Of a stretch of 64,000 bases of DNA, positions 16,613 through 29,699 are shown piece after piece. The first letter of the stretch is position 1; the number at the start of each line of letters is the position of its first letter. The notes beneath the pieces are model-generated. The model did no database searches and was not told where the DNA came from. It worked only from the letters and a program-made list of their open reading frames with translations. Position numbers and translations under genes: made by a program. The stretch covers positions 124,001 through 188,000 of the forward strand of contig JAHHHD010000004.1 in assembly GCA_019359505.1 (NCBI GenBank), written 5' to 3'. This DNA comes from Drouetiella hepatica Uher 2000/2452. GTDB taxonomy: Bacteria > Cyanobacteriota > Cyanobacteriia > Elainellales > Elainellaceae.

Positions 16613-18643
16613 CTATAGCTCTTTTAATCCGGTACTCGTGATCGTTCCGGTTAGTGGCGAACTGGCGCTGGCATAGGATTTGATGGGAATTCGCCCAGCG
16701 AGATAGGCTAAACGTCCGGCTTCTGTGGCGAGTCCCATGGCGCGACCCATAGCCGCCGGATTTTCTGCCAGAGCGATCGCCGTATTGATCAGCAGCGCGT
16801 CAGCTCCCATTTCCATTGCCTGAGCCGCTTCGCTAGGTGCGCCAATTCCAGCATCCACCACAACAGGCACTTGAACCGTTTCAATAATAATCTGAATATT
16901 GGCGGTATTCTTGATACCCTGCCCTGAGCCGATCGGTGAACCCAGCGGCATAACGGTGGCACAGCCCACCTCTTCCAATCGCTTTGCCAGTAGCGGATCG
17001 GCATTGATGTAGGGCAGAACGGCAAAGCCTTCTTTTACGAGCTTTTCAGCGGCTTCCAGGGTGCCGATTGGGTCGGGCAGCAGATATTTGGCATCGGGAA
17101 TGACCTCTAACTTAACGAAATTGTTGTCTTCCTGACCCAACAGCTTCGCCATTTCTCGCCCTAGCCGCGCCACACGAATTGCCTCCTCTGCGGTTTGGCA
17201 ACCTGCCGTATTGGGCAGCATCCAGATTTTGCTCCAGTCCAGCGCTTCGGCAAGTCCTTCATGACCGGGTGCGTTGGTCTGGACGCGACGAACTGCGACC
17301 GTGACGATCTCGCAGCCGCTAGCCGCGACGCTCTGACGCATTTGGTCAAAGTTGCGATACTTTCCTGTCCCTGTCATCAGGCGCGATCGAAACGATCGCC
17401 CTGCAATCACTAAAGGCTTAGGATCAACCAACGGTGCAGCGGCAGAATCAATGGGGGCAGAATCAATGGGGGCAGAATCAGGCGGGGCAGAATCAGGCGG
17501 GGCGATCGGGGAAGAATATTGCAGCATTGTGTCAGAGGGAGAAGTAGAGTCAGAGATGGAACCTGTAGGCTGGGAACCGTAAAACCGCTCCCAGGAAAAA
17601 GCGTCGAGTAAGGGAGAAGATTGCTGATTGAAGACGCGATCGCCCACCAGCCTTGCCGTGATGGGTGCCAGCAGAATTCCGTTGCGGTAGTGTCCCGTTG
17701 CCAAGGTCAGGTTATCACAGAGGCTTGACCCCAGAATGGGTAGCTCATCGGGCGTTGCCGGACGAAAGCCCCACCAGCATTCGTGAATCGGCAAATTGCT
17801 CAGCGCTGGGTAAAGCCGAATAGCGGCATTGAGCAATTTCTGCATTCCGGCGGGCGTATTGTAGGGAGTAAAGCCCACCTCTTCATTCGTGGCACCTATG
17901 ACGATCCGTCCATCTCGACGGGGCACAATATACGCCTCTTCGCCAAACAAAACCCGCTGAAGCGGCAGTTTCTCAGCCTCAGCAACCTTTACCGCCAGCA
18001 TTTGTCCTTTGCGGGGCTGCACGGGCACAGGCAGCAAGTCTTGTGACCAAGCTCCGGTTGCTAAAATGTAGTGTCCGGCAGTGCGATCGCCCCCCGTCGT
18101 GGTTAGCCTCACGACCTGCCCTTGGTACTGCTGAATTCCAGTAACAGCAATTCCTTCCTGAATATCTACGCCCAGGATTTCTGCAACCGATCGCAAGACC
18201 TGAGCCAAGGCCCGATTATCGACCTGTCCTTCTTCAGGATACCACCAGCCGCCGATCGCTTCACCTAGTCCAGGCTGGGCATGATGGAGGGCGGTGCGAT
18301 CGAGCCAAATTTGGGCAGGATTGCTCAATTTAGTTTCAGGGAGCTTGTAAAGTGGGGCAAGGATGCCGCTCGACCAATAGCCTGTACTCTTGCCGCTCAG
18401 GTTTTCTAACTTGCTGATCCAGCCTGGATAAAGCGACAGGCTCTTCAAGCACAAGTCCAACATGGGGCTATCGGGAAGGGCTTCAGCTCTGGGAGCCAGC
18501 ATTCCGGCGGCAGCATGGGAGGCTGCCTGCTGAAAATCACGGCTGAGGATAGTCACTGCGGCTCCGCGCAGCTTCAGGTCAATGGCGATCGCCAACCCGA
18601 TGATGCCGCCACCGATGATTGCAATATCACTTATCGGATGCAT
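16613..18643 (-). CDS. thiO/thiG: Bifunctional glycine oxidase / thiazole synthase, ThiO-ThiG fusion
   Basis: Thiamine thiazole biosynthesis. Residues ~1-365 are ThiO, an FAD-dependent glycine oxidase that makes dehydroglycine: dinucleotide motif [14 protein letters not shown] at the start, [12 protein letters not shown] and the C-terminal [12 protein letters not shown]. After a Ser/Pro/Asp linker, residues ~415-676 are ThiG, which condenses dehydroglycine, DXP and ThiS sulfur: [19 protein letters not shown], the Schiff-base Lys region [20 protein letters not shown] and the phosphate loop [14 protein letters not shown] 18643 has GGAG 6 bp upstream; an in-frame TTG at 18667 lacks support. The fusion is known in cyanobacteria. 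The linker is encoded by four 15-bp tandem repeats. Confidence 0.95.
17441..17500. repeat. Four 15-bp tandem repeats in the ThiO-ThiG linker
   Basis: Two copies of GGCAGAATCAATGGG are followed by two copies of GGCAGAATCAGGCGG. On the coding strand they give repeated Pro-(Ile/Pro)-Asp-Ser-Ala pentapeptides that make up the flexible linker. The units are in frame, so copy-number change would alter linker length only. Confidence 0.9.
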
Positions 18644-18822
18644 GAAAGACTCCGTACTTGCCCTCAAATCGTGCTTGCCCGAAACCTATTCCAGTTCAGC
18701 TTCTTCAGCTATGAAATTCCAGCTATGAGATTCTCTACAAAAGTCGCTGGATTGTAGAAAAAAAGCATCTAACGCAGGTTAGGCATTAGCGTCTTGAGAC
18801 AACCTAAAGACAGTCTGCCTTG

Positions 18823-23866: not shown

Positions 23867-24883
23867 ATGCAAGTTCAATTTCAGGTCATTCGACAAACCG
23901 CAGATTCTCCCGCACGAATCCAGACTTATGCACTAGAAGTGGAGCCAGGAAACACGATTTTAGACTGCCTCAATCGGATCAAGTGGGAGCAAGATGGCGG
24001 TTTGGCATTTCGCAAGAATTGTCGCAATACCATTTGTGGAAGCTGCACCATGCGGATTAATGGTCGATCGGCACTAGCCTGCAAAGAAAATGTGGGGAGC
24101 GAACTAGCGCGACTGGAGGCGATCCATGCCGCATCACCGGACGGTGGTTCTGCCCCTTCAGCCAGTGCGATCCCCACTTTAACGATCGCCCCCATGGGCA
24201 ATATGCCTGTGATCAAGGATCTGGTCGTGGATATGCAGAGCTTCTGGGATAACCTAGAGGCGGTCGATCCCTACGTCAGCACCGAGGCGCGGCAGGTGCC
24301 AGAGCGGGAGTTTTTGCAGCTTCCAGAAGAGCGCGATCGACTGAATCAGGTGGGCAACTGTATTCTCTGTGGAGCTTGCTACTCAGAATGCACCGCCCGC
24401 GAAGTGAATCCTGAGTTTGTTGGGCCGCATGCCCTGGCAAAGGTATATCGGACGATTGCCGACTCTAGGGATGACCAGACAGAAGCACGGCTAGAGCAGT
24501 ATAGCGAAGGCACGAGTGGCGTTTGGGGCTGCACGCGCTGCTACTACTGCAACTCTGTCTGCCCGATGGAGGTAGCCCCCATGGAGCAAATTAGCAAGAT
24601 TAAGCAAGAAGTGCTCGATCGCCAAAATGCCCAGACTAGCCGCCCTGTGCGCCATCGTAAGGTGCTGATTGACCTGGTGAAAGAGGGGGGATGGATTGAT
24701 GAGCGCAAGTTTGGGCTAATGGTGGTAGGCAACTCATTCCGGGATTTGAGAGGTCTAGCAGGCTTAGGGCCTCTGGGCTTGCGGATGTTGGCACGCGGCA
24801 AGTTCCCGCTGATGTTTGAGCCATCTGAAGGAGCCGCAGAAGTGCGATCGCTGATGGAAGCCGTGCAAAAAGCAGAAAGTTAG
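23867..24883 (+). CDS. sdhB: Succinate dehydrogenase/fumarate reductase iron-sulfur subunit
   Basis: Electron-transfer subunit linking the flavoprotein to the quinone site on the thylakoid or plasma membrane, 338 aa. Plant-type [2Fe-2S] Cys set near residues 55-75 (CRNTICGSC and a later Cys). The [4Fe-4S] motif is CILCGACYSEC and the [3Fe-4S] motif CTRCYYCNSVCP. The protein is longer than E. coli SdhB (~240 aa), with an insertion after the 2Fe-2S domain and a C-terminal extension, as in cyanobacterial homologues. The SdhA partner is not adjacent, as is common in cyanobacteria. Confidence 0.92.
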   Translation: MQVQFQVIRQTADSPARIQTYALEVEPGNTILDCLNRIKWEQDGGLAFRKNCRNTICGSCTMRINGRSALACKENVGSELARLEAIHAASPDGGSAPSASAIPTLTIAPMGNMPVIKDLVVDMQSFWDNLEAVDPYVSTEARQVPEREFLQLPEERDRLNQVGNCILCGACYSECTAREVNPEFVGPHALAKVYRTIADSRDDQTEARLEQYSEGTSGVWGCTRCYYCNSVCPMEVAPMEQISKIKQEVLDRQNAQTSRPVRHRKVLIDLVKEGGWIDERKFGLMVVGNSFRDLRGLAGLGPLGLRMLARGKFPLMFEPSEGAAEVRSLMEAVQKAES

Positions 24884-25002: not shown

Positions 25003-26787
25003 CTAGGGTTGTTCGAGAAACTGGGGCTGTTGAAGGAGCTGTGGCTGTAGCGGCAGCACCGCTAGTCCGTAAGCAATGCGACTACAGCCAGGAATACAGC
25101 GATCGCTTGAGGCTCGGTAGGTATCTTGGGTAATAGTGGCATTGGGCAGCTTTTGCCTCAGCCAGCGAGCGATCGCCCCCAAGGACGCAGTGCCGCCTGT
25201 GCAAATGACTTGATTAACGTCTGTTACAGTCAGATCTGCTTGGGTCAGCAACGCATTTAGCTCACGATTGAGCCGCTGAATATAGGGCAGCAAAACCTGA
25301 CTTCCCAAATCCTGCCGGAGGATGGTCTGCTGTTGATGACCCAACTGTAGGCGGCAACGGCTCTGCTGCTGGAGGGTGAGCTTAATATATTGCGCCGCAT
25401 TGAGCAAAATATTACCCGATCGAGAGCTTTGTAGACGCTGTTGAAGTTGACTACGCAAAGCTAAATCCGGCTCTCCAGCATGAGGCAGCTTCAAATTGTG
25501 GAAGGCAAGCACCGTCAGATCGATCGCCTCGGCAATAAAATCTTCTGCAACGGCTTCTCCCAAACCCTCTAGCGATCGCGCAATACTGTTCCCTGCGTCT
25601 TGGGTGAGAAAAGGATAGATTAATTGACAGATAATATCCTGATCAATCCCCTGACCGGCAAACGGAAGGCTGCGAATCTGCACCTTGTTTCGATTCAAAT
25701 CTAGCGAGTTTGGGGCTACTGGCGAATTTCCTGCAATCTGCATGATTGCAAGTTCGGTCGTGACGGCTCCAGCAACCAATACCAGCGTGTTTTTGGACTC
25801 CGAAGTTTCGGTTGCAACAGCATTTCGCTGAGAGCTGTGCGGCAAAACAATTTCTCGACCGCTACTGCTGTTCAGAGTAGACAAGAATGCTGCGATCGAG
25901 TCTTCCACAAAGTAAATCTGATCTGGATCAGTTACCAGATGGGCATCCAGGACAATTTGCCGCAGATTAGAACAGTAAACCTCTGACCAGTCAGCAGGAT
26001 AGCCGATCGCGACACCCGTGATCGGCGGCAGGGCAGCTTCAAGCTCTAGCGCTTCAGCCGAGCCGATGAGACTAGAAAGCAGAGCTGACAGCGCCTGAGT
26101 GATTTGAATGAGCGAAATTTGCTGAGTATCTGACCCTTGCACCACCGTTGGTCTGCGATCGCTCGTCTGCTGGGGAAGCTTTAGGTAAGGCTTAAAATCA
26201 TGCAGATGAAAGGCAGCGTGGTTAGCAGTCTGGAGCGAGAGAGCTGAGGGCAGACGAAATTTGAGTTCGCTAGGGACTTCAGATCTTTCTGGCAGTCCTG
26301 AGATCGGCGATGTCCAGTAGAGGGGGTAGAGGTGATAGGTTGCTTGATTGAGCAAGACGGCTGAAATTCCAGTCGTGCCAAAGTCTAGACCCAAATACCA
26401 CCGGGCTTCAGTAACTTGAGGGATGTCTTCAGGGATAGGTGGCTCGACAGCGATCGGCGCTGCCTGGACTTCTTCTGCCATGTCCATTGCCCAAGCCTCT
26501 AAGCTTAGAGCTTGAAGGTCAGGCGTTTGAGGATCGGGCAGGAGAACCTCTTGAAGTGATGGAGATTCAGGGGCGATCGGCTGAGCTGCCATCATATCCA
26601 TTGCCCAAGCCTCCAGGCTCATTGCCCCAGCACCGCCTTCCTGCGATTCGCCTGTTGGCGCGTCTACCGGAAAAATATCTACGAAGGGATCGTTTTCCAG
26701 AAGGCTTTCATAGTCGATCGACGAGGAATCAGCGTCGGGACTTGCCGAAACCCAGCCCGGACTGATATCGGGATCTAGACTTTTTTT
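25003..26787 (-). CDS. Hsp70/actin-fold ATPase-like protein, continuous with upstream ORF through an A9 frameshift
   Basis: The frame is open from 26787 to 25003, about 595 codons; the first ATG is at 26622 (539 aa). The Hsp70-type phosphate-1 loop is YLGLDFGTTGISAVLL (about 80 residues after that ATG) and the adenosine motif is ICTGGTASLGAIARWL near the C-terminus. The phosphate-2 loop is degenerate (VLVAGAVTTELAI lacks the usual Asp-x-Gly). A SLEAWAMDM motif occurs twice near the start. The codons upstream of 26622 read as acidic Ser/Asp/Pro-rich protein (DPDISPGWVSASPDADSSS) like the tail of the 974-aa ORF, and AGGAAGG is too far from ATG 26622 to be a good site. A -1 slip on nine A residues would join the two frames into one ~1,565-aa protein. 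Function unknown; ATPase activity is doubtful. Confidence 0.78.
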   Translation of the reverse strand, partial: KKSLDPDISPGWVSASPDADSSSIDYESLLENDPFVDIFPVDAPTGESQEGGAGAMSLEAWAMDMMAAQPIAPESPSLQEVLLPDPQTPDLQALSLEAWAMDMAEEVQAAPIAVEPPIPEDIPQVTEARWYLGLDFGTTGISAVLLNQATYHLYPLYWTSPISGLPERSEVPSELKFRLPSALSLQTANHAAFHLHDFKPYLKLPQQTSDRRPTVVQGSDTQQISLIQITQALSALLSSLIGSAEALELEAALPPITGVAIGYPADWSEVYCSNLRQIVLDAHLVTDPDQIYFVEDSIAAFLSTLNSSSGREIVLPHSSQRNAVATETSESKNTLVLVAGAVTTELAIMQIAGNSPVAPNSLDLNRNKVQIRSLPFAGQGIDQDIICQLIYPFLTQDAGNSIARSLEGLGEAVAEDFIAEAIDLTVLAFHNLKLPHAGEPDLALRSQLQQRLQSSRSGNILLNAAQYIKLTLQQQSRCRLQLGHQQQTILRQDLGSQVLLPYIQRLNRELNALLTQADLTVTDVNQVICTGGTASLGAIARWLRQKLPNATITQDTYRASSDRCIPGCSRIAYGLAVLPLQPQLLQQPQFLEQP

Positions 26788-29699
26788 TTAGGCTGTGTCT
26801 CAAGCTCAGGGGCTTCAGTATCGGGGATCTCTAATCCGGGCAGCGACGGTATTCCTTCAAACAAAATGTCTAAGCCTTCTAGAGTAAAAGCATTGCCTGA
26901 TGCAGCTAAGTTCTCTGAGGAAGCGCTCCGGCTGTCTGAAGCCCGGTCTGAAGGTTGGTCTGAAGCTTGGTCTGGAAACTGGACAGATGTTTGATCAGAC
27001 GTTTGATCAGGAGCCTCGAAGAAATTGATATCGGGATCTGGGTTAGCACCTGAATTAGGATCTGGAGCAAATGCCTCTAGCTCATCCGTAAATAGAAGAT
27101 CTTCTAGCGTGATGGCGTTAGCAATTTGGTCAGCCTGACTGTCGATCGTCCCTTCCGAAGGAGCCTTCAGGTATAAATCTGCCAAGGGATCTACGCTCAA
27201 TGTATCCTCACGATTCGTTGCCTGTGGCGCCAGGTCACTTTCCAGATTTAAGCTTGCGCTTTCCAGATTTAAGCTTGCGCCAGGAAGCTCTAGGGTAGAT
27301 AGATCTGCCGTGAGTCGTTGCAGCGTGTCCTCGCCGACCTCAAAGTTAGCGATCGTCTCTTGCGAGGTGGCTGAAATCAGCAGATCTTCTCCAGGATGAG
27401 CAGGTTCAAAGGCATCAGGATCGCTGACATCAGATTCAGCGGGGGTAGCGATCGCCCACACACTGTCTTCAGGTCTTTCTAGCTCAGGGACGTCTAGATT
27501 GGGAGTGGCATATTCTGAAATCAAATCGGTCAGCGCCGAAATGGTCTCTACCGGAGCCGTAACGGCTGGAGAAGCCGCAACTGGCTCGATCTGAATTTCC
27601 TCTGCCAGCTCCCAAAAGATATCTTCCTCAATGGGTGTGCTGATTTTAGATGAGTCGAAACTAGAGGGTTCTTGGGGGGATGCAGGTTCGCTCAACAGGA
27701 AATTTTCGACCGACTGAGGGAAAGGAGCGATCGAGAAATCGGGTAAAAAGTCAGCTTCTGCATCTTGAATGGGCTGAGCGATCGCCGGATCGACGGCTCC
27801 ACCAAAGAGGTCTTCGTGGGAAGGCGCTGCCGTCAGGCTGTAGCTTTGGAGCGGATCTTCTGGCTGAAGCGTGTTGCTCTGGGACGTGTTGCCCTGGGGC
27901 GTTGGCACATCCTCTTGAAACCACTCATTCAAATCCACAGATGGCGCTAGTTCATTCTCTGTATCTACCTCAAAAGACAAGAAATCTGTTGGCTCCAGAG
28001 TTTCAGAGGCTAAATCAGGGTTTGGCAGATTTGTGAGATTGCTGTCTAGATCCCTGTCTACATCAGAATTCTCCGAGATTTTCAAGTTCTTGTTGGTATC
28101 ACCAAACAAGCTCTGATAGAAATCGTCAGTGTAGAGATTGTCAGGAGAATCAATCAGTGAAGGGGGAGCGATCGCCTCAGACTTCTCCTCAAACCTTTCC
28201 TCAACTGACCCTAATTCTAGAGTGCCGTCTGGCTTGAAGGAATCTATAGGCAGTTCATTAGATTCGGCTTTAGATATGCTGCCTTCAGGGAGTTCTGTCT
28301 CAGCTTCAGCGCTAAGTTGATTGAGCAGATCTAGGGCAGACTCCAGATCTTCAGAACTAGAATCAGATGGGGCGTCACTCTGGGAAAAGCTTTCTGGAAG
28401 GAAGGTGTGAGAGATGTCATAGGAAGGGGAAGGGTCATGAGAATCCCTAATACTGACCTGATCCAGATCTTGAATAGCCTGATCTAAATCCAGATTTTGA
28501 ATACGGGTTGCGTCTTCCGAGGAGAATTTTGAGAAGGGAAATTCCTGATCTTCTTGGAAGAAAGTCAGGTCGCCATCGTCATCAGGAAAATAATCTACCT
28601 CTAACGGAGCAACCGACAGGTCAAGCTGCTGCAACTCCTGATCCAGCGCTTCCAAACTGCCGACCTCTAGCGCAAAGGGCTGTGGCTGCCATCGCGTCTC
28701 TAAAGAATCGGGTTGAGGATTGGTGGGGCTAAGCGAATTCAATTCCTCTAGGAGTCGGGCAATCTCAGCATCTGCATTTTCATCTAACGCTCTTTTTGTA
28801 GACAGAGCGCGATCGCCCTCCAAAATTTGCGGTTGAGCAGGTGACTGGACTTGTTGCTGAGCTTGCTGCTGGGACTGCGACTGCAAGTAGACTGATGCCT
28901 CCTTGCCCAACTGTTCTGCCAGTCGAGTGACGAGCGCAGAAAACATCGCTTCGCCCTGCTGCCCTAGGCTTTGCATTCGGCTTAGCCCTTGCTCTAGAGA
29001 CTCTTGGTAAGTCAGAATATTGTTTTGCAAGGAATCAAAAATGACTTGCAGCGTTGAATCTAGCTTTAGCAAAAGCTGATCCGACTGAATTTGTACGCGC
29101 TGAATTTGCTCAAGCCGCTGGGCTGAACTCAAGGAAGCGATCGCCAAATTCTCAGAGTCTGCCGCACCATGCAGCAGCGGCGGCTCAACCGCGCCCTCAA
29201 CGGCCAGACTGGCAACCATTTGCGTCACCTGCCCCCGCAGACTTTCCTGCATCTGCCCCATAGCCGACTGAAGAAACTCCATCAAAAGCTGCGGATTGCC
29301 CTGCGGTAGACCATACTGCTGGCGTTGGGCTTCGAGCTGACGAATTTCTTGGGTGAGCGCCTCTCGCTGCTGCCGCAACAAATCTACATCCGATCGCATC
29401 GGTTGCAGCATATTGACCCGCAGATAGGTCATTTCCTGTAAAACCGCTTGCAGCACTTGTTGAGCAGATTCTGCTGCGGGCTGTCCAGAAGGCAGGAGCT
29501 TTGCTTCAGGATCGATCGTCTGATCGGTTAGCCCTTGACTAGGGATTTGCAGTTTGTCCAGACAACTCCGGGCTTGCTCCAAAACTTGCCGCTGCCGCAT
29601 AGCATCGGTGGACATGACCCAAGGCAAACGAGGGGTGGTTTTGCTAAGAACCTCGTCAATTTCTTGGATAAGCGCTTGAATTTGGTCGTTTTGAGCCAC
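26775..29699 (-). CDS. Large acidic coiled-coil protein, conserved in cyanobacteria, unknown
   Basis: A 974-aa product starting at a GTG with AGGGAC 9 bp upstream. Residues ~1-300 are helical and Gln/Leu-rich with coiled-coil heptads (LRQQREALTQEIRQLEAQRQ; LEQIQRVQIQSDQLLLKLD). Residues ~300-970 are disordered and acidic, dominated by Asp, Glu, Ser, Pro and Leu, with short internal repeats (LNLESASLNLES; SDQTSDQTS). The ORF ends QPKKKV at a run of nine A (coding strand), and the -1 frame continues without a stop into the Hsp70-like ORF. The N-terminus could be an oligomerisation or scaffold module for the C-terminal Hsp70-like part. Confidence 0.8.
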   Translation of the reverse strand: MAQNDQIQALIQEIDEVLSKTTPRLPWVMSTDAMRQRQVLEQARSCLDKLQIPSQGLTDQTIDPEAKLLPSGQPAAESAQQVLQAVLQEMTYLRVNMLQPMRSDVDLLRQQREALTQEIRQLEAQRQQYGLPQGNPQLLMEFLQSAMGQMQESLRGQVTQMVASLAVEGAVEPPLLHGAADSENLAIASLSSAQRLEQIQRVQIQSDQLLLKLDSTLQVIFDSLQNNILTYQESLEQGLSRMQSLGQQGEAMFSALVTRLAEQLGKEASVYLQSQSQQQAQQQVQSPAQPQILEGDRALSTKRALDENADAEIARLLEELNSLSPTNPQPDSLETRWQPQPFALEVGSLEALDQELQQLDLSVAPLEVDYFPDDDGDLTFFQEDQEFPFSKFSSEDATRIQNLDLDQAIQDLDQVSIRDSHDPSPSYDISHTFLPESFSQSDAPSDSSSEDLESALDLLNQLSAEAETELPEGSISKAESNELPIDSFKPDGTLELGSVEERFEEKSEAIAPPSLIDSPDNLYTDDFYQSLFGDTNKNLKISENSDVDRDLDSNLTNLPNPDLASETLEPTDFLSFEVDTENELAPSVDLNEWFQEDVPTPQGNTSQSNTLQPEDPLQSYSLTAAPSHEDLFGGAVDPAIAQPIQDAEADFLPDFSIAPFPQSVENFLLSEPASPQEPSSFDSSKISTPIEEDIFWELAEEIQIEPVAASPAVTAPVETISALTDLISEYATPNLDVPELERPEDSVWAIATPAESDVSDPDAFEPAHPGEDLLISATSQETIANFEVGEDTLQRLTADLSTLELPGASLNLESASLNLESDLAPQATNREDTLSVDPLADLYLKAPSEGTIDSQADQIANAITLEDLLFTDELEAFAPDPNSGANPDPDINFFEAPDQTSDQTSVQFPDQASDQPSDRASDSRSASSENLAASGNAFTLEGLDILFEGIPSLPGLEIPDTEAPELETQPKKKV
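26781..26789 (-). promoter_or_regulatory. A9 slippery run, candidate -1 frameshift or slippage site
   Basis: Nine consecutive A on the coding strand, read as AAA AAA AAA then GTC TAG in the upstream frame. The -1 frame after the run (AGT CTA GAT...) is open for 593 codons. The run contains the heptamer A AAA AAA, a classical -1 slippery sequence and also a transcriptional slippage site. Translation (programmed or not), RNA polymerase slippage, or a sequencing/mutational indel would all give the same picture. Confidence 0.6.

Follow-up and report, generated by a model that had tools for sequence, protein, structure and literature searches.

How can a protein domain be produced when its reading frame opens at a run of nine adenines, out of register with the long frame in front of it? 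This question is raised by a locus of Drouetiella hepatica within the window, i.e., the whole 64,000-nt stretch of DNA that was analysed and to which all coordinates refer. Nine T on the plus strand at 26781-26789 correspond to nine A (A9) on the minus strand, on which both frames are read. The first, the head (26775-29699, minus strand), encodes 974 amino acids from a GTG start and ends in QPKKKV. The junction reads CCT AAA AAA AAA GTC TAG, with the TAG stop of the unslipped frame (26775-26777, minus strand) one codon past the run. The second, the tail, lies at -1 relative to the head and is open over 594 codons (25003-26787, minus strand; stop at 25003). It comprises an acidic linker between the run and the ATPase domain (26404-26780, minus strand), recognized by its composition and alignable with the sister species L032, and a part resembling the nucleotide-binding domain (NBD) of Hsp70 (25006-26403, minus strand), delimited by an AlphaFold model and fold matches in the PDB. 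By arithmetic from these coordinates, a message with one additional A, or lacking two, would encode head and tail as one protein of about 1,565 residues. The initial annotation had described an acidic 974-aa frame ending in AAA AAA AAA GTC TAG, linked by A9 to an Hsp70-like -1 frame of about 593 codons, and this description was confirmed.

Two copies of the motif SLEAWAMDM occur in the linker past the run (26404-26622, minus strand) and have the counterparts SLEDWAQDM and SLEDWAADM in L032, so that they look like a conserved short repeat motif. A scan for promoters and terminators between 24900 and 30100 returned sites no more often than shuffled sequences did. The convergent neighbour (23867-24883, plus strand) resembles what we take to be the iron-sulfur subunit of succinate dehydrogenase, and a presumed ThiO-ThiG-like fusion lies further away (16613-18667, minus strand).

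The head consists of an N-terminal helical region of about 280 amino acids followed by a long acidic linker that is probably disordered. A model of the head start was nearly all-helical (pLDDT 75.5, pTM 0.35) and probably represents a coiled coil. Searches of the head against Pfam and NCBIfam returned no family at E 0.1. Motifs like FTLEGLDxLFxD recur in the acidic head linker shortly upstream of the run in several species. The tail model (pLDDT 82.9, pTM 0.86) found its best PDB fold matches in DnaK/Hsp70, with Z 28.4 over 334 residues at 3.3 Å against an integrative DnaK model and Z 27.3 against structure 7kru, supporting an Hsp70 NBD fold with putative ATPase activity. Modelling thus supports the combination of coiled-coil head and Hsp70-fold tail that had been suggested earlier, the coiled coil itself being only probable.

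At the sequence level the tail scored 15.0 bits against the Pfam Hsp70 family (PF00012), under the gathering score of 20.6, and a Pfam search with two long relatives gave no Hsp70 match and only sub-threshold PilM_2 and FAST_2. A sequence search of solved structures with the tail profile, A1, returned no match at E 0.01, whereas the fold search did. The same genome also carries four clear DnaK genes, and an HH comparison of the tail with these reached E 0.00018 at a probability of 48%. In the mapping obtained at this HH probability of only 48%, the Glu of the NEP-type loop and the glycines of the adenosine loop were paired, and the Asp of the second phosphate motif was replaced; the roles of these motifs are those which we assume for them. 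No substrate-binding domain is present in the tail of the window, which ends 12 residues beyond the stretch aligned with the DnaK NBD (model residues 1-454 of 466). The family thus shares with Hsp70/DnaK the NBD fold, the NEP-type-loop Glu and the adenosine-loop glycines, but differs from it in the absence of a substrate-binding domain and of the second-phosphate Asp and in the presence of a giant helical and acidic N-terminal part. The gene is, therefore, not an ordinary chaperone gene.

Homologues were collected with A1, which matched 160 of the 290 Cyanobacteriia genomes in the sample (completeness 90% or more), with one match per genome in most of them. In a sample of the phylum, 31 of 117 genomes matched at E 1e-10, all 31 of them in the class Cyanobacteriia; A1 had no match in two genomes outside the class, among those listed, and 66 further genomes were also without a match. 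In total, 136 sequences were read (29 from the search among relatives, 80 class loci, 26 named loci and the window), which together with the own genome cover 108 of the 160 matching genomes. A homologous head was present in 119 of the 136, many of the remaining 17 lying on short contigs. Eleven duplicates (L063, L066, L067, L068, L071, L076, L078, L080, L081, L084 and L085) and L102, the contig of which begins at the run, were dropped, leaving 124 loci. The 80 class loci are a manual choice, with short and long open frames about equal in number, so that the fractions given here are not frequencies in nature. Runs of at least seven A were searched by script and those of at least eight were counted. 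L160 and L126 were classed by hand as open frames without a run, and L083, L112, L118 and L064 as tails with their own start; no head was found for L107 and L119, and L092, L094-L096 and L125 were left unclassified owing to contig ends. Five run carriers on short contigs (L043, L045, L048, L050 and L111) had no head match, and the frame before the run was taken there from the longest open frame.

Some loci carry further irregularities. L126 has a frame break inside the head without an A-run, and its close relatives L161 and L162 are continuous. In L047, from a draft genome that is 88% complete, a second frame break without an A-run lies inside the ATPase region. L124 has internal stops in the tail and an intact A10; its genome (G274) is listed at 5% contamination, and the locus is either a decaying copy or affected by assembly errors.

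The A-run turned out to be conserved in homologues, a point that the initial annotation had left to be checked. An uninterrupted A8-A11 between head and ATPase domain was found in 72 of the 124 deduplicated cyanobacterial loci (two A8, 11 A9, 51 A10 and eight A11), and in the relatives sample alone it occupied the same junction in 27 genera. Relative to the head, the tail of these 72 lies at -1 in 40 and at +1 in ten, so that 50 are split, and at 0 in 22, where one open frame passes through the run. The run counts 9-11 A in each of the 50 split loci; both A8 loci are in frame 0. The frame rests on fewer than 200 codons in L040, L077, L091, L111 and L120, and leaving these out gave 67 carriers with 37 at -1, 20 at 0 and ten at +1. 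Six genomes that consist of a single contig carry split genes (G011, G029, G047, G155, G190 and G258). The other 52 loci comprise 41 with an open frame and no run, four tails with their own start, two without a head and five cut by contig ends. Of the four tails with their own start, those of three lineages, L083, L112 and L118, have head and tail in separate frames with a plausible start of the tail and no run of eight or more A (L112 has A7 near the head end), and the contig of L064 is too short upstream to show a head. Among 14 no-run loci inspected over the 600 nt before the domain, the longest A-run was 3-5 in 13 and seven in one. L149 adjoins L151 on the tail tree; both have one open frame, and where L151 has A10 the same place in L149 is broken to GAAAAAGAACAG, a recent loss of the run.

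A chance origin was rejected by this comparison together with the rarity of such runs. The own genome of 6.42 Mb contains 17 runs of at least nine A on both strands, from which about 0.004 are expected per 3 kb of one strand; 20 genomes contained 5-194 each on both strands, and at the upper end of this range, too, no more than about 0.03 would be expected in 2 kb of one strand. In the 64-kb window A8 matched six times versus 6.64 in shuffles, which is no excess, so that the case is made by the comparison and not by the window taken alone. At least two other runs of nine or more A lie inside long open frames of the own genome, both in frame: an A9 each in L178, presumably a tyrosine-recombinase-like frame, and in L177, which we take to be IspE-like. 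In G258:C1:1239960-1241058, A9 occurs nine times on one strand at intervals of about 130-140 nt, which looks like an array of repeats with an A-run in each. Selection for lysines as such is likewise unlikely. The run sits in a fast-evolving acidic linker in which KKK is otherwise almost absent: it was counted three times over 39,439 residues of upstream linker, and just one of 39 open-frame loci without a run has it within 300 residues ahead of the domain. In the rest of these genes, AAA makes up a median of 52% of lysine codons; by both figures an all-AAA lysine stretch is not the default, the run itself consisting of A by definition. Over the 72 loci the all-AAA lysines gave a summed log10 probability of -51, which is not usable as a P-value and was given no weight, because the loci are related to one another and a run, as defined, consists of A only. 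The run is a conserved element, neither a product of chance nor of sequencing error.

The position of the tail relative to the run is less constant than the run itself. On a quick IQ-TREE tree of the tail (124 rows; stars on 63 of the 121 inner branches; several branches long), the frame changed at least 17 times among the 72 carriers, and the presence of the run at least 11 times among 117 classed rows. Both frame (17 changes versus 27.7 in 50 shuffles) and run length (15 versus 19.9) cluster on the tree beyond shuffled labels and are therefore inherited and slow to change, the frame thus not being fully neutral. Among 21 sister pairs with the run, 17 have the same length and 16 the same frame. 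The five differing in frame are L033/L087, L116/L117, L111/L121, L037/L047 and L048/L055. In the first, +1 in L033 and -1 in L087 coexist with A10 in both; in the second, L116 is at -1 with A10 and L117 at +1 with A11. The frame of L111 in the third rests on 89 codons at a contig end.

Purifying selection acts on the tail in species with split loci. Of 13 pairs that include split loci, 12 gave a tail dN/dS of 0.06-0.32 (pS 0.16-0.73), and the remaining one, L111/L121, was saturated at silent sites. No ATG, GTG or TTG occurs between the run and the ATPase domain in five of the 50 split loci, and 29 of 50 have no ATG there. In the window, the in-frame ATGs after the run lie at 26622 and below within the linker, and the best SD-like stretch ends 13 nt upstream of ATG 26622, for which a poor ribosome-site spacing had been noted earlier. 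By its low dN/dS the tail is evidently expressed, even though it has no clear gene start. The 50 codons past the run had been regarded as coding on account of their acidic composition. This composition is indeed that of the head (D+E 24%, compared to 22% over residues 300-970 of the head and 9% for the Hsp70-like part), but for the reading of the stretch in front of the first start codon there is no more than a weak indication: between the run and ATG 26622, 21 of 45 residues are identical to the sister species at pN/pS 0.80, and from the run to the first start pN/pS was 0.55-0.90 (seven computable of nine pairs, the window pair included).

A further regularity concerns the frame at +1 to the tail, in which the first stop comes at a median of 2 codons past the run in loci with the tail at -1, 1.5 at +1 and 2 at 0, compared to medians of 11.5-17.5 codons elsewhere in the same genes. 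Loci in frame 0 show the near stop less clearly (mean quantile 0.30). For loci with the tail at -1, the unslipped frame is the one concerned, and its stop follows partly from the split, whereas in the other two classes no such stop is required. The stop is due either to selection for an early end of the short product or to a protein motif behind the lysines.

We consider it likely that the A-run is a conserved programmed slippage site at which RNA polymerase allows for two products, the head alone and the head with the ATPase domain. On 9-11 adenines the polymerase would produce a mixture of messages with one or more A added or missing. The templated A9 message of D. hepatica would end one codon past the run and yield the 974-aa head, and messages with one extra A or two fewer would yield the long protein ending in the Hsp70-like ATPase domain. 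As several frames would be supplied by slippage, the tail could drift among -1, 0 and +1 in the genome while selection holds the run. An uninterrupted run of at least 8-9 A or T kept at the junction and a direction of frame change that is not conserved are the properties by which slippage sites were judged, and both were found here, the run in many lineages and three frame states with it. Transcriptional slippage would account for the frame states, the length of 9-11 and the changing direction alike. As a counterpoint, the run is missing from 41 of the 124 loci, each a single open frame, and the short product seems dispensable in those lineages. Were slippage rare, a shift between -1 and 0 would invert the ratio of the products; since relatives differ in just this way, either slippage is efficient or the ratio is tolerated. 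The chances appear about even that the gene is 'frame-neutral', i.e., that polymerase slippage on an ancient A-run is so efficient that it is of little consequence in which frame the genome holds the tail, the frame having drifted through three values across Cyanobacteria with the ratio of coiled-coil scaffold to scaffold plus Hsp70-like ATPase, as set by slippage, being kept. Because the head is common to both products, a mixed assembly in which only some subunits bear the ATPase would be a likely use, and a scaffold with a fraction of subunits, set by slippage, that carries an ATPase or actin-like module appears to be the most economical reading. A link to the cyanobacterial DnaK1-type IV pilus system (PMC9239167, PMC12288463) is only a thought.

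The two-product logic itself, which the initial annotation had compared to dnaX, is strongly supported by the comparison of loci. The mechanism proposed there, a programmed -1 slip of the ribosome on A AAA AAA/G of the E. coli dnaX type, would fit only the 40 loci with a -1 tail, and we regard it as an unlikely explanation. By inspection, an X XXY YYZ heptamer is present in any phase within A9-A11, and exactly -1 is needed in 40 of the 50 split loci. SD-like motifs upstream occurred in 13 of 72 loci compared to 9.6% of control positions, and downstream folding reached z < -2 in six of 72; however, the mean folding z was -0.10, and stimulators are not evident overall. Against a constant -1 direction, ten of the 50 split loci require +1 or -2, including those of the single-contig genomes G011 and G155, the direction differs between sister species, and 22 loci are in frame and yet keep the run. 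The split loci also all have 9-11 A although a heptamer of 7 nt would do. For a mixed direction, PMC3711429 predicts transcriptional realignment. Ribosomal -1 frameshifting alone cannot account for the loci at +1 and at 0. As an A7 heptamer lies within every A9-A11 run, ribosomes may nevertheless contribute, and in the -1 loci ribosomal slippage may add to the transcriptional one.

A phase-variable contingency locus, in which the run gains or loses A in the DNA and the tail is switched between cells, would likewise leave a homopolymer in a coding sequence, three frame states and a close sister pair with A10 and A11 (L116/L117). We consider this quite unlikely, as run length and frame are shared by most sister pairs, several of them at high silent divergence (one genome per species was compared), and as L033 and L087 differ in frame at equal run length. 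Translation of the tail from its own codon after termination of the head, by reinitiation or an internal start, i.e., two separate genes, is very unlikely. Such a start is available in the window at ATG 26622 and plausible in the three no-run loci with a separate tail frame and in L064 with its short contig, but start codons are missing from a part of the split loci, the residues encoded from the run to the ATG can be aligned with the sister species (at a pN/pS that is weak evidence), and the retention of the run would be left unexplained. That sequencing or assembly errors or decaying pseudogenes underlie the pattern is barely credible: extra breaks, N stretches or internal stops do occur in L040, L047, L077, L091, L120, L123, L124 and L126 and have the look of draft errors or decay, but the run recurs at the same junction across genera, single-contig genomes are split, and dN/dS of the tail is well under 1. 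Both the indel and the two-gene alternatives raised at the outset thus fail for the family as a whole.

If programmed transcriptional slippage is indeed at work, the family would represent a class-wide cyanobacterial case, replicated dozens of times by nature and in all three frames, opening the co-evolution of slippage rate, run length and frame to direct tests. Annotation pipelines probably split such loci or call them pseudogenes, thereby hiding a family of giant proteins ending in an Hsp70-like ATPase domain. To our knowledge, few cases of programmed transcriptional slippage in chromosomal genes are known. Examples are given in PMC5009743. The gene was unreported in the literature searched by title and start of abstract, the supplementary tables of frameshift catalogues lying outside that scope. 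The passages retrieved for cyanobacterial names from PMC5009743, PMC1088944 and PMC3711429 deal with IS elements, carboxysomes and genome counts, and 'Hsp70' is absent from the main text of PMC3711429 and from the first 300,000 of 475,107 characters of that of PMC5009743.

These sources allow for a comparison with known systems. Selection against A/T runs is seen in a large share of genomes at a length of nine (PMC1088944), and a changing direction serves as a criterion for transcriptional realignment (PMC3711429). Transposases of IS elements use slippage on A-runs (PMC1088944, PMC3711429); as here, the run is kept and the direction is not conserved in some families, but these elements are mobile, whereas the present gene mostly has one match per genome. 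Two-ORF dnaX genes with 7-10 A, among them those of Chlorobi, have been read as cases of transcriptional realignment (PMC3711429) and resemble the split loci in that a long A-run joins two frames, although gene and phylum are different. The closest precedent, by analogy, would be dnaX of Thermus thermophilus, in which transcriptional slippage on A9 gives short and long products at about 1:1 and the run lies in one open frame with stops in the other frames (PMC1088944, PMC5009743). In both systems an A-run, A9 in Thermus and in D. hepatica, lies in a cellular gene and one product lacks the C-terminal part, in the present family by our reading, and the frame-0 loci have the same layout as Thermus dnaX; in contrast to the latter, the protein is unrelated and the tail may occupy any of the three frames, with -1 the commonest in our sample.
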